Source of the DNA: Actinomycetes bacterium
Lineage (GTDB): Bacteria; Actinomycetota; Acidimicrobiia; Acidimicrobiales; Palsa-688
Reading direction: 5' to 3'
Length of the DNA stretch: 20,393 nt
NCBI GenBank assembly: GCA_021816565.1
Contig: JAKAXN010000027.1
Location: 1-20,393 of the forward strand
The notes beneath the pieces are model-generated. The model was not told the origin of the DNA, did not search any database, and saw nothing but the letters and a program-made list of their open reading frames with translations. The position numbers and the translations under genes are program-made. The number at the start of each line of letters is the position of its first letter. The first letter of the stretch is position 1. This document shows, piece by piece, positions 1 to 13,901 of this stretch.

Positions 1-1187
1 CCGACGGCGGCGGCATGACCTGCCACGCCGCCATCGTCAGCCGGGAGCTCGGGGTGCCCTGCGTGGTGGGTACCAGGAACGCCACCACCGTCCTGCGCAC
101 CGGGGAGCGCGTCACCGTCGACGGCGGTCGGGGCAGGGTCCTCGAGGCCATCCTGCTCGGGGCCGTGCCCACGGTGGCGGCGCCGGCCTCCCCGACGGTG
201 GCGGAGCCGGCCACCGAGGTCCCCACCTCCACTCTGCTGTACGTCAACCTGGCCATGGCCGGCCACGCCCAGGAGGCGGCGGCCATGCCGGTCGACGGGG
301 TGGGGTTGCTGCGGGCCGAGTTCATGATCACCGACGCCCTCCGGGGAGAGCACCCCCGCAAGCTGCTGGCCGAGGGCCGGCGGGCCGAACTGGTGGACGC
401 CATGACCGCGTCGCTGCTCCAGGTCACCCGGGCCTTCGCCCCCCGTCCGGTCGTGTACCGGACCATCGACTTCCGGACCAACGAGTTCCGGGGGCTGCGG
501 GGAGGCGACGAGTTCGAGCCGCCGGAGGACAACCCGATGATCGGCTACCGCGGCTGCTTCCGCTACGTCAAGGAGCCGGAGCTGTTCATGGTGGAGACCG
601 AGATACTGGCCCGGGTCCGGGAGGAGACCCCGAACCTCCATCTCATGATCCCCTTCGTCCGCACCAAATGGGAGCTCGAGGAGTGCCTCGACCTGATCGA
701 CCGCAGCCCCCTGGGCCGCCAGCGGGGCCTGCGCCGGTGGGTGATGGCCGAGGTGCCGTCGGTCGCCTACCGCATCCCCGAGTACGCCGCGCTCGGCATA
801 GACGGGGTGTCGATCGGATCCAACGACCTGACCCAGCTGATGCTCGGCGTGGACCGGGACTCGGAGACCTGCGCCGAACTGTTCGACGAGGCCGACGCCG
901 CCGTGCTCGACGCCATCGAGAGGATCGTCACCGCCAGCCGGCAGGCCGGGATCACCTGCTCCCTGTGCGGGCAGGCGCCGAGCAACCGCCCCGACTTCGC
1001 CGAGCACCTGGTCCGGTTCGGGATCACATCGGTGTCGGTCGACCCGGCTGCCGTGCCGGCCGCCCGCTCCGCCATCGCCCGGGCCGAGCAGCGCCTGGTG
1101 CTGGAGGCCGCCCACCGGTCCCTCGCCTCCCGGCCACCCGGCCGACCGCCGGCGGATGGGGCCGGGGCTGAAAGAGGCGCGCCGTGA
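1..1187 (+). CDS. ppsA: Phosphoenolpyruvate synthase, C-terminal part (5' end outside window)
   Basis: PEP synthase (pyruvate, water dikinase) converts pyruvate and ATP to PEP, AMP and phosphate in the cytosol. The frame is open from position 3, so about 394 residues are visible; full-length family members are near 800, so the nucleotide-binding N-terminal half lies upstream. The visible part starts inside the swivelling phosphohistidine domain (GGGMTCHAAIVSRE, with the catalytic His). It continues into the PEP-binding TIM barrel with GVGLLRAEFM, DFRTNEFRGLRGG, NPMIGYRG, IGSNDLTQLMLGVDRD and the catalytic cysteine loop CSLCGQAPSNRPDF. These match PpsA better than pyruvate phosphate dikinase or PTS enzyme I. 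The TGA stop overlaps a possible GTG start of the CBS gene. The nearby pyruvate:ferredoxin oxidoreductase genes point to a gluconeogenic or anaplerotic role (inference). Confidence 0.95.
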   Translation, partial: DGGGMTCHAAIVSRELGVPCVVGTRNATTVLRTGERVTVDGGRGRVLEAILLGAVPTVAAPASPTVAEPATEVPTSTLLYVNLAMAGHAQEAAAMPVDGVGLLRAEFMITDALRGEHPRKLLAEGRRAELVDAMTASLLQVTRAFAPRPVVYRTIDFRTNEFRGLRGGDEFEPPEDNPMIGYRGCFRYVKEPELFMVETEILARVREETPNLHLMIPFVRTKWELEECLDLIDRSPLGRQRGLRRWVMAEVPSVAYRIPEYAALGIDGVSIGSNDLTQLMLGVDRDSETCAELFDEADAAVLDAIERIVTASRQAGITCSLCGQAPSNRPDFAEHLVRFGITSVSVDPAAVPAARSAIARAEQRLVLEAAHRSLASRPPGRPPADGAGAERGAP

Positions 1188-1231
1188 ACCGCCGACCGCG
1201 TGAGCGAACACCAGGAAGGAGCCGTCCGGAC

Positions 1232-1999
1232 ATGCCCCCCTCGGAGCAGGCCAAGATCTTCCCCACCACGTCGCTGGCCGAGCCCCGCCCGCTCCCGTTC
1301 CTGCCGGTGCTGGTCCGCGACGTGATGACGGCCGATCCGGTCACGGTGGAGCCGACGGCCACGGTCAAGGACATCGCCCACCTGCTGCTCACCCACGACA
1401 TCCGCGCGGTGCCGGTGGTCGACGTGGGTGACCGGATCGTCGGCGTGGTGGGGGAGGCCGACCTCATCAGCCGGGGCGGCTACCCGGCGGTGCGGAGCCG
1501 GCACCTGGCCGGGCTGCTCGACGACACCCTCGTGGAGCACCGCCGGCACTGGGCCCAGAAGGCCGGGGGGCTGACCGCCGGGGAGATCATGACCACCGAA
1601 GTGATCTCCTGCGGCCCGGTCGAACCGGTCGGGGCCGCGGCCCGGCGGATGCTGCGCACCGACGTCCGTAGCCTGCCGGTGGTGGACCGGGGTCGGCTGG
1701 TCGGCATGGTGTCGCGACACGACCTGCTGCACCTCTACGACCGCCCGGACCGGGAGATCTCGGAGCGGATCACCGAGCTGCTGAAGGACCCGTCGTGGGC
1801 CCCCGAGGGCCACCGGGTCGTCCACCATGTGGACGACGGGGTGGTCGTCCTCACCGGGACCGTCCTCCACCCGTCGGACCGCCACGTGGTGGCCACCATC
1901 GTGGCCCAGGTCCCCGGGGTGCTGGAGGTGGCCGACCGGACCACCGCCGAGGAGCCCGAGCCCGAGCCGTTCTTCCTCAAGGACACCGACTGGCGGTAG
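1232..1999 (+). CDS. CBS-pair and BON domain protein
   Basis: 255 residues. Residues about 29-80 and 116-170 form a tandem CBS pair (VRDVMTADPVTV and AGEIMTTEVISC begin the two repeats). Such pairs usually bind adenosyl ligands and act as energy or redox sensors. Residues about 172-238 look like a BON domain (ITELLKDP..., DDGVVVLTGTV, VPGVLEVADRT), a fold linked to membrane or phospholipid association, though no signal peptide is present. I chose ATG 1232 because AGGAAGGA lies about 11 bases upstream. GTG 1184 is an in-frame alternative that would overlap the ppsA stop as GTGA and has AGAGG six bases upstream. The gene is probably co-transcribed with ppsA. M. tuberculosis Rv2626c (Hrp1) is a known two-CBS DosR-regulon protein, but it lacks the BON extension. 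Confidence 0.9.
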   Translation: MPPSEQAKIFPTTSLAEPRPLPFLPVLVRDVMTADPVTVEPTATVKDIAHLLLTHDIRAVPVVDVGDRIVGVVGEADLISRGGYPAVRSRHLAGLLDDTLVEHRRHWAQKAGGLTAGEIMTTEVISCGPVEPVGAAARRMLRTDVRSLPVVDRGRLVGMVSRHDLLHLYDRPDREISERITELLKDPSWAPEGHRVVHHVDDGVVVLTGTVLHPSDRHVVATIVAQVPGVLEVADRTTAEEPEPEPFFLKDTDWR

Positions 2000-2072
2000 T
2001 CGGCGCCCCGGCCCGGGCGGCGCCCCGGCGACGGCCGTACCCCGGGCGCCGGCGCCCGCCGTGGTGGCGTCC
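2000..2072. terminator. GC-rich hairpins between convergent genes (candidate bidirectional terminator)
   Basis: This 73-base gap separates the stops of the CBS gene (+) and the flavoprotein gene (-). It contains GGCGCC at 2002-2007 repeated at 2019-2024 (self-complementary, able to pair) and the palindrome GGGCGCCGGCGCCC at 2044-2057, which extends to a 6-bp stem with a CCGG loop. There is no U-tract, so termination is inferred from position and structure only. Confidence 0.35.
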
Positions 2073-12778: not shown

Positions 12779-12821
12779 GGTCTCTCCTTGCCGTCTCTCC
12801 GGGCCCTCTGCCCGGCCGTTG

Positions 12822-12845
12822 CCGGTCGGGCTGTGGGCCGACCGG
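12822..12845 (-). terminator. Hairpin after the second zinc dehydrogenase gene
   Basis: CCGGTCGG (12822-12829) and CCGACCGG (12838-12845) form a perfect 8-bp stem with an 8-base loop, 12 bases beyond the dehydrogenase stop. A smaller CCGGGC/GCCCGG hairpin (12799-12815) follows. Together they probably terminate or attenuate transcription before the ferritin-like gene. Confidence 0.45.
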
Positions 12846-12857
12846 TGGGTGAGGTGG

Positions 12858-13901
12858 TCACGCCCTCGACACGAACACCTTCAGCGCGCTGGTCTCCGCG
12901 GCCCGGCTGAACACGTCGTAGGCCCGCTCGAACTCGTCGAGATGGAAGCGGTGGGTGACGAAGCGCTCGGCGTCGAGCTGGTGGCCCCTGAGCAGCTTGA
13001 GGAACGTGTCGGTGGAGTAGGCGTCGACCAGCCCGGTGGTGATCGTGACGTCCCTGGTCCAGAGGTCCTCGAGGTGGAGCATGGCCGGCCGGCCGTGCAC
13101 GCCGATGTTGGCGATCCGCCCGCCGGGGCGCACCACGCTGGCCGCCAGCTCGAAGGTCTCGGGTACCCCGACAGCCTCAATGGCCACGTCGGCGCCGAGG
13201 CCACCGGTCACGCTCCTGATCGCCTCGAGCGGGTCCTGCCTGGCGTTGTTGACGATGATGTCGGCGCCGAACTGCTTGGCCGCCTCGAGCCGGGCATCGG
13301 CCATGTCCACCGCCACGATGTGCGACGGGCTGTAGAGCCGGCTGCCCATGATGGCGGACAGGCCGATCGGCCCGGCGCCGACCACGGCCACCACGTCCCC
13401 CGGTCGGACCTGGCCGTTGAGGACGCCGACCTCGTAGCCGGTGGGGAGGATGTCGGACACCATGAGCAGTGCCTCGTCGCTGACCCCGGGAGGGGCCGGG
13501 TAGGTGGAGGTGTCGGCGAAGGGCACCCGTACGTACTCCGCCTGTGTCCCGTCGATGAGATGACCGAGGATCCATCCCCCGCCGCCCAGGCACTGGCCGT
13601 ACCTGCTCTCCCGGCAGTAGCGGCAGGTGCCGCAGGAGCTGATGCACGAGACCAGCACCCGGTCGCCGGGCTTGACCCGGTGCACCCCCGAACCCACGCT
13701 CTCCACGGTGCCCACCGCCTCGTGGCCGAGGATCCGCCCCGGTTGCACCTCGGGAACGTCGCCTTTGAGAATGTGCAGGTCGGTCCCGCAGATGGTGGTC
13801 GAATCGACCCGGACCACTGCGTCGGTGTCGGCTTCGATCACCGGGTCGGGGACCTCGTCCCAGGACTTCTGGCCCGGGCCGTGGTAGACGATGGCCTTCA
13901 T
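12858..13901 (-). CDS. Zinc-dependent alcohol dehydrogenase family protein
   Basis: 347 residues, medium-chain dehydrogenase. Catalytic zinc ligands are C38 (TICGTDLH), H60 and E61 (LGHEAVG). Structural zinc ligands are C90, C93, C96 and C104. The Rossmann motif is VVGAGPIGLSA, and the acidic residue in VAVDMADARL favours NAD over NADP. ATG 13901 is chosen because AGGAGG lies seven bases upstream; an in-frame extension to 13946 runs into the promoter region. Overall it resembles dehydrogenases acting on short-chain alcohols or formaldehyde-type substrates, but the substrate is unassigned. It shares low similarity with the first zinc dehydrogenase (7351-8358), so they are not a recent duplication. 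Its upstream region carries the best DosR-box-like site in the window. Confidence 0.92.
   Translation of the reverse strand: MKAIVYHGPGQKSWDEVPDPVIEADTDAVVRVDSTTICGTDLHILKGDVPEVQPGRILGHEAVGTVESVGSGVHRVKPGDRVLVSCISSCGTCRYCRESRYGQCLGGGGWILGHLIDGTQAEYVRVPFADTSTYPAPPGVSDEALLMVSDILPTGYEVGVLNGQVRPGDVVAVVGAGPIGLSAIMGSRLYSPSHIVAVDMADARLEAAKQFGADIIVNNARQDPLEAIRSVTGGLGADVAIEAVGVPETFELAASVVRPGGRIANIGVHGRPAMLHLEDLWTRDVTITTGLVDAYSTDTFLKLLRGHQLDAERFVTHRFHLDEFERAYDVFSRAAETSALKVFVSRA

Follow-up and report, generated by a model that had tools for sequence, protein, structure and literature searches.

A putative DosR/OsdR-type low-oxygen island with a pyruvate:ferredoxin-type oxidoreductase and PEP synthase in a high-GC actinobacterium

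The por operon and ppsA

The DNA analysed here, positions 1 to 20,393 of contig JAKAXN010000027.1 (the window, 20,393 bases with a G+C content of about 73%), contains a four-gene operon for a pyruvate:ferredoxin oxidoreductase (POR, also written PFOR) and part of ppsA, the gene for phosphoenolpyruvate (PEP) synthase, together with genes for universal stress proteins (USPs), a small heat-shock protein and zinc dehydrogenases. It is likely that this region is part of a DosR/OsdR-type low-oxygen island of an uncultured high-GC actinobacterium, extended by an arm of POR and PEP synthase, which would probably make the island a new metabolic variant of the DosR type. Low-oxygen switches of this type govern dormancy in mycobacteria and Streptomyces. 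An original prediction, made by a model from the sequence and its open reading frames (ORFs), had listed much of this gene content. Tested against Pfam and NCBIfam models, the list was right in substance, with PorGAB, the ferredoxin-linked flavoprotein, the CBS pair, the phosphoribosyltransferase-like protein and Hsp20 all backed by these families.

The por genes are on the minus strand. The first, porG (5888..6493), encodes the gamma subunit (Pfam POR; TIGR02175 above cut-off). It is followed by porA (4708..5895) for the alpha subunit, which has POR_N and PFOR_II domains and whose best match in the PDB is the alpha subunit of the four-subunit PFOR 9bt4 (E=8e-101), and by porB (3695..4708) for the thiamine pyrophosphate (TPP)-binding beta subunit (Pfam TPP_enzyme_C), in which Cys49, 52, 81, 158 and 246 are conserved among 105 relatives. 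The last gene (2073..3725) encodes an NfnB/GltD-like NAD(P)-binding flavoprotein fused to a PorD-type 2[4Fe-4S] ferredoxin domain. NF009410 matches this fusion above cut-off, as does TIGR02179 (PorD_KorD) over residues 493-548. PDB alignments pair residues 40-430 with NfnA and with related chains of formate dehydrogenase, dihydropyrimidine dehydrogenase and glutamate synthase, and residues 496-546 with the PFOR delta subunit 9bt4_G; 15 of its cysteines are kept (98% or more) among 97 relatives. Family and structure matches, the conserved cysteines and a GDG motif give the operon all four modules (alpha, beta, gamma and delta) of a PorGABD-type enzyme, with ligands for TPP and iron-sulfur clusters. 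Judged by sequence, then, it is a four-component pyruvate:ferredoxin-type oxidoreductase in which the ferredoxin domain of the fourth subunit is fused to an NAD(P)-binding flavoprotein. Family membership suggests pyruvate as the substrate and NAD(P)+ as the acceptor.

Might the substrate of PorGAB instead be a different 2-oxo acid, such as oxalate, 2-oxoisovalerate or phenylglyoxylate? The NCBIfam models for PorA and PorB leave some room for this, as pyruvate-type models are top for both but neither protein reaches the equivalog cut-offs, and models of phenylglyoxylate dehydrogenase and oxalate oxidoreductase also match, more weakly. The same ranking argues for pyruvate, as do the match of PorG to the pyruvate/2-ketoisovalerate gamma family above cut-off, the PFOR alpha chain as best structural match of PorA, and the tight runs of por with gap and PEP synthase genes in relatives described below. 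We regard a different substrate as quite unlikely.

Of the 80 loci retained for PorA, 74 have all four por genes together, and because many of these loci are betaproteobacterial the four-gene unit is not peculiar to actinobacteria. Betaproteobacteria commonly carry it, Rhodoferax and Accumulibacter among them (non-actinobacterial loci among L002-L080). The nearest relative of the window PorA (70%) is from an 'Actinomycetes' metagenome-assembled genome (MAG), locus L001.

At the left end of the window, ppsA (15..1187, plus strand) is convergent with the por operon. It probably encodes PEP synthase (pyruvate, water dikinase), as predicted, although only the C-terminal part (Pfam PEP-utilizers_C) is inside the window, the 5' end being outside. 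The best NCBIfam models for this part are the PEP synthase models NF005057 and TIGR01418, matched in their C-terminal half, with 387.8 bits for PEP synthase against 65.7 for dikinase. The homologue in relative L004 (69%) passes the cut-off in full length. Between ppsA and the por operon is a gene for a protein with a CBS pair and a BON domain (1184..1999, plus strand; Pfam), which matches at 46% a protein in the DosR island L093 of relative G001.

DosR/OsdR-like boxes in the window

A generic box scan of the window, allowing 2 mismatches, gave 145 matches with 214 expected and was uninformative; a matrix from published sites was therefore adopted. It has 16 positions and was built from 16 Streptomyces coelicolor OsdR sites of Table 1 of PMC5069765, which are predicted sites, several of them bound in electrophoretic mobility shift assays. 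Boxes of this type are palindromes near GGG(A/C)CNNNNG(G/T)CCC.

The best matrix match in the window, TGGGATGTTCGGCCCT (8408..8423, plus strand, 15.1 bits), is between the divergent genes for zinc alcohol dehydrogenase 1 (ADH1) and Hsp20. The second best, AGGGCCGAACGCCCTT (13973..13988, 13.0 bits), is between the divergent genes for zinc dehydrogenase 2 (ADH2) and an AMP-forming acyl-CoA ligase. The third is inside coding DNA. The fourth, CGGGACGTTCGCCCCT (6532..6547, minus strand), is upstream of porG, 39 to 54 bases before the annotated start and at about -77 from the inner start used in the box tests; by matrix the locus p is 0.048. Three of the four best matches are intergenic, and intergenic DNA makes up 6% of the window. 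Circular shifting of the intergenic mask gave p=3.5e-4 with the best 4 matches, the lowest value this test can reach, p=0.02 with the best 10 and p=3.5e-4 with the best 30. These three matches place DosR/OsdR-type boxes in promoters of the island, each single site being a candidate. The last of them is past the end of the island as originally drawn (1..13901), which should reach to about 14057. A site resembling the ADH2 box is found 73 bp before the closest ADH2 homologue (L156).

Boxes upstream of por in other genomes

The por loci compared were a PorA-based set chosen for likeness to the window and samples of two classes. This PorB is present in 7 of the 247 Acidimicrobiia and 21 of the 394 Actinomycetes sampled, and the first set already included five of the genomes concerned. 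Loci were assigned as actinobacterial by record title or class. A test upstream of porG alone misses runs in which gap or ppsA precedes porG, and a run-aware rule was introduced for this reason, counting a box of at most one mismatch if it fell in the 250 bp before the first gene of the co-directional run. With the window excluded, such a box is present in 20 of 40 actinobacterial loci (3.9 expected from the same loci) compared with 2 of 56 loci outside the actinobacteria (1.7 expected). Perfect boxes were found at eight actinobacterial loci (L005, L007, L009, L030, L036, L069, L128 and L139; 0.46 expected) and at no non-actinobacterial locus. When loci are restricted to a GC content above 0.6 the difference persists, with 20/30 actinobacterial (3.8 expected) versus 2/29 non-actinobacterial loci (Fisher p=1.4e-6); the actinobacterial hits divide into 12/14 in the window-likeness set and 8/16 in the less biased class samples (2.1 expected). 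The porG-only tests, with the window among the 41 loci, were weaker but in the same direction, at 16/41 versus 2/56 by consensus and 12/41 versus 1/56 by matrix (locus p<0.05).

Five loci with too little upstream DNA (L016, L040, L061, L115 and L118) were left out, as were pieces without a usable PorG match, second pieces of loci already counted, and the por matches on contig C335 of G282 and in G223. L140 was counted as a miss, since the ORF caller had lengthened a gene upstream, though CGGGACGAAAGGCCCT is present 102 bp before its porG. In three low-GC actinobacteria (L049, L125 and L131) a different sequence, GGCGCTGGCACTCAC, is common to all at 82-91 bp before porG; it is perhaps the site of another regulator, or reflects mere relatedness.

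Other genes of the window were followed in the same way. ADH1 homologues served as a control over 300 bp upstream in largely the same genomes, and a box was seen in 7/30 (p=8e-4 versus por). ADH1 as a general member of the regulon was rejected, there being no box enrichment among its homologues. Boxes are upstream of 11/16 ADH2 homologues (4.1 expected) and of 4/5 Hsp20 homologues in fetched loci (1.6 expected). They also precede 3/4 homologues of the small helical protein (0.7 expected) and 3/6 of the kinase-like protein (1.7 expected), both of which are described below.

It could be argued that the boxes are real and serve mainly hsp20 and ADH2, with por being there by chance or for another purpose, for example CO2-fixing pyruvate synthesis. 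The por box is indeed the weakest of the three in the window, and POR with PEP synthase is also the classical pair that builds sugar from acetyl-CoA. The enrichment of boxes before por runs in relatives, eight of them perfect, speaks for por itself as a target, as does a Kribbella locus in which dosR adjoins the por region. We consider it very unlikely that por is a bystander in the island.

DosR-type regulators near por in relatives

As the original prediction stated, there is no dosR or dosS gene in the window; the window holds no regulator gene. DosR-type regulators were first picked by motif in the fetched islands, and for two of them run against the PDB the best match was Mycobacterium tuberculosis DevR (3c3w), 77 to 80 bits above the next protein. 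A DosR-type regulator with at least 267 bits was found in all 16 por-bearing actinobacterial genomes first examined, six of which had supplied the query alignment. Co-occurrence of DosR and POR in a genome was rejected as proof, being weak where DosR-type genes are common.

The position of the regulator near por is more telling than this co-occurrence. Of 15 por contigs 150 kb or longer, 5 have a DosR-type gene at most 75 kb from por, among the matches listed (0.63 expected, P=2e-4); the 15 long contigs were listed by hand, and G437, G375 and G569 were scored as not near, the place of their DosR not being among those matches. In Kribbella (L069) the interval from the end of dosR to porG is 0.8 kb and contains one small gene on the opposite strand; a perfect palindrome, AGGGACCTAGGTCCCT, precedes porG. 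In the Acidimicrobiia islands L091 and L098, dosR adjoins a GAF-HisKA_3 kinase. Additionally, at least 8 of the 16 genomes have a listed USP gene no more than 30 kb from porB. Lack of conserved co-occurrence in relatives had been named at the outset as an observation that would count against a DosR-type island; with USP genes near porB and dosR near por, such co-occurrence is found.

Several points weigh against a DosR-type programme at this locus. The first is the lack of a regulator gene in the window. The por box of the window is weak alone, as a consensus match with at most one mismatch is present in 26% of equal windows, and the nearest PorA relative, L001, is without a box within one mismatch. 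Among low-GC actinobacterial loci none of 10 has the box. Both ADH1 orthologues (3/16, 3.6 expected) and ADH1 paralogues (4/14, 2.9 expected) are at background, and the box before gap in L133 scores -3.5 by matrix. DosR-type genes are common, in 126/247 Acidimicrobiia and 292/394 Actinomycetes, and because of these high base rates their presence in por-bearing genomes of the two classes (6/7 and 19/21) is only borderline (p=0.067 and 0.058); the class samples share five genomes with the first 16. Finally, both the wider consensus (A to A/C) and the run-aware rule were adopted once the relatives had first been inspected, which makes the matrix test the cleaner one.

Could the window simply be a region rich in stress and redox genes, with no shared DosR programme and with por under Rex, FNR or CRP? 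The absence of a regulator gene from the window, the differing content and order of the relatives' islands and the nearest relative L001 without a clear box would fit this. Yet consensus strings of the Rex and FNR type have no match in the window, and the one CRP-like match (3.7 expected) is inside the USP1 gene (mismatch limits of 3, 2 and 2 for Rex, FNR and CRP). With no promoter sites in the window for any of the three, these control candidates were rejected, and boxes of the DosR type are enriched before por and ADH2 in actinobacteria. Control by another redox regulator is in our view unlikely, and a DosR/OsdR-type island is the reading we prefer.

Arrangement of the island in relatives

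PEP synthase is encoded in the same fetched piece as por in 6 of 40 relatives (L004, L020, L030, L128, L133 and L139). Two of these, L020 from Jiangella (8397-16219) and L133 (8515-16337), have a tight six-gene run, gap-porG-porA-porB-flavoprotein-ppsA, with a one-mismatch site before gap; for L020 the identity of glyceraldehyde-3-phosphate dehydrogenase (GAPDH) and PEP synthase was confirmed. In L128 the run is ppsA-porGAB-flavoprotein, preceded by two boxes, one perfect and one with a single mismatch. In L004 ppsA and porG are divergent, and the DNA between them likewise has one perfect and one single-mismatch box. The convergent arrangement of the window recurs in L030/L150 (one place) and in L139, the window adding the CBS-BON gene.

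The islands of relatives vary in gene content and order. Some also encode a sulfhydrogenase-like NiFe hydrogenase and an ADP-forming acyl-CoA synthetase-like protein; Pfam identifies both clearly, though neither reaches its NCBIfam equivalog cut-off. Some carry anaerobic CO dehydrogenase (TIGR01702 above cut-off in L091). The CO dehydrogenase and the hydrogenase are both present in the Acidimicrobiia DosR/DosS islands L091:7307-15229 and L098:3-7627. L128:59-17315 resembles the Mycobacterium smegmatis cluster discussed below. It encodes an ADH2 homologue, a small protein of USP size, a P-type ATPase, an acyl-CoA synthetase-like protein and a class I fructose-bisphosphate aldolase, whose gene is preceded by two boxes.

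Other genes of the window

Upstream of porG, a phosphoribosyltransferase-like protein (Pfam Pribosyltran) is encoded at 6567..7208 and ADH1 at 7351..8358, both on the minus strand. Two zinc dehydrogenases had been predicted, and Pfam and NCBIfam back both. ADH1 (TIGR02822 above cut-off) matches at 79% a protein of G001, the genome to which L001 also belongs, and at 73% the alcohol dehydrogenase of the Acidimicrobiales DosR island L091. ADH2 (12858..13901, minus strand; Pfam) is recurrent in DosR/USP neighbourhoods. It matches at 77% a protein of the Acidimicrobiaceae MAG G013. The 20 genomes searched include 13 with close ADH2 homologues (at least 400 bits), 16 in all, and at least nine of the 16 have a listed USP, dosR or por gene no farther than 25 kb away.

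The gene hsp20 (8480..8932, plus strand; Pfam HSP20) encodes a small heat-shock protein whose family had been recognized correctly. The label HspX-like was too narrow, the best PDB relatives being other small heat-shock proteins in a comparison that did not include HspX. Similarly, the gene at 9029..10492 (minus strand) had been called an APH/P-loop kinase; its P-loop AAA domains score (C-terminal AAA_33), the APH domain is absent from the Pfam scan, and we describe the product as kinase-like.

The three predicted USPs were borne out by Pfam (Usp). They are encoded at 10633..11121 (USP1, plus strand), 11368..11832 (USP2, minus strand) and 11836..12252 (USP3, minus strand), and direct reading finds in each the pattern G-2x-G-9x-G-S, which we take to be the ATP motif of the family. 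USP2 and USP3 match USPs of the DosR island L093 of G001 at 53% and 57%. Clustered USPs, here three, are a feature of DosR/OsdR islands. Between the convergent USP1 and USP2 genes, positions 11149-11254 contain repeated hairpin arms, AACTGTTCACCGG and CCGGTGAACAGTT, and two direct copies of 34 nt that are 74% alike; they may be a small repeat element or a terminator that works in both directions.

The gene at 12296..12778 (minus strand) encodes a predicted four-helix protein with conserved DExRHH and DTxKH motifs (alignment of 4) and without any Pfam or NCBIfam family match. Its AlphaFold model, of moderate confidence, has four long helices with a mean predicted local distance difference test score (pLDDT) of 72.5. 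Searched against the PDB, the model gave no fold match at E<=0.001, with bacterioferritins among the weak matches. The earlier label of ferritin-like is too specific, no ferritin profile matching the protein, and any claim of a fold was dropped as the model is too uncertain. Homologues were found in 4 of 20 genomes searched, one of them about 6 kb from porB in G003, and a 54-55% homologue adjoins por in L004.

The AMP-forming acyl-CoA ligase gene (14058..15593, plus strand; Pfam AMP-binding) shares the ADH2 box. Its membership of the island is uncertain, and its homologues in the fetched pieces of relatives are weak only. Farther downstream the window encodes an acyltransferase, a SpoIID-type protein and a DUF3311 protein. 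The acyltransferase (15621-17600) has a 48% homologue in L004, which is also near por and the small helical protein.

A model of the island

The original prediction proposed one programme coupling chaperone and USP functions to anaerobic pyruvate metabolism. The boxes at the por, ADH1/hsp20 and ADH2 promoters and the por boxes of relatives favour such a programme, whereas the inclusion of ADH1, which is without enrichment, and of an HspX-specific chaperone found no such backing. We suggest that, as oxygen falls, a DosS-like kinase would phosphorylate a DosR-family activator encoded elsewhere in the genome. The activator would then bind the palindromic boxes in the porG, ADH1/hsp20 and ADH2 promoters. 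In low oxygen POR may oxidise pyruvate to acetyl-CoA with NAD(P)+ as the final acceptor, while PEP synthase would govern the exchange of pyruvate and PEP. In those relatives with an ADP-forming acyl-CoA synthetase-like protein in the island, acetate and ATP could be formed, and the USPs and Hsp20 may protect the non-growing cell. This model builds on the gene content, the box sequences and the box enrichment in relatives; binding, induction and the direction of flux enter it as conditional steps.

A broader proposal, which we offer tentatively and hold at slightly less than an even chance, is that the DosR regulon of non-mycobacterial Actinobacteria has long had a metabolic arm in the POR-PEP synthase(-GAPDH) module, whose four-component POR is NAD(P)-linked. 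This module might let nominal aerobes (Streptomyces, Kribbella, Jiangella and Acidimicrobiia) oxidise pyruvate in the anaerobic style and, through ADP-forming acyl-CoA synthetase, ferment it to acetate for ATP in hypoxic dormancy. If so, PEP synthase and a POR equipped with an NAD(P) flavoprotein of its own would be under the direct control of a DosR-type switch, and in some lineages so would GAPDH and ADP-forming acyl-CoA synthetase. Hypoxia sensing would be tied to a specific anaerobic pathway, and in actinobacteria, uncultured Acidimicrobiia among them, the DosR regulon would take in a metabolic core as well as stress proteins. A 2010 paper described as unanswered the question of how reducing equivalents are recycled in hypoxic mycobacteria (PMC2799521).

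Comparison with known systems

The enzyme encoded by the por operon is like the four-subunit PFOR 9bt4 in its alpha subunit and its delta-type ferredoxin domain, and differs in that the delta domain is fused to an NfnB/GltD-like flavoprotein. NADH-dependent phenylglyoxylate dehydrogenase (Pad) is another 2-oxoacid oxidoreductase with a pyridine-nucleotide flavoprotein. The NCBIfam models of Pad alpha, beta and gamma match the window subunits far below cut-off and below the pyruvate-type models.

Our literature search found no report linking a four-gene POR to DosR or OsdR and no text pairing 'OsdR' with 'ferredoxin oxidoreductase'; coverage of subscription journals was poor, so novelty is unproven. 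A Mycobacterium avium DosR paper was considered as a precedent and rejected, its one match being a Giardia reference. PEP synthase in a mycobacterial DosR cluster has already been published, and a four-gene POR in such a cluster was found in no earlier report.

The island controlled by OsdR (SCO0204) in S. coelicolor has, like the window, a USP cluster, zinc dehydrogenases and the same type of box before its targets (PMC5069765). Its pyruvate enzyme is a pyruvate phosphate dikinase, SCO0208, which belongs to the OsdR regulon (PMC5069765); the window has instead PEP synthase and the four-gene POR. The low-oxygen-induced DevR cluster of M. smegmatis, MSMEG_3926-3955, includes USPs, the PEP synthase MSMEG_3934, the NiFe hydrogenase Hyd3, a P-type ATPase and DevR (PMC2799521, PMC11303327), and is like the window in its USPs and PEP synthase. 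The putative POR/KOR of M. smegmatis is a separate gene pair, MSMEG_4645/4646, reported as 4-fold up in hypoxia (PMC2799521, PMC11303327); a further search on this pair gave nitric oxide/H2O2 proteomics only. The M. smegmatis pair stands apart from the DevR cluster, whereas in the window a four-gene POR with an NAD(P) flavoprotein is found inside the island.

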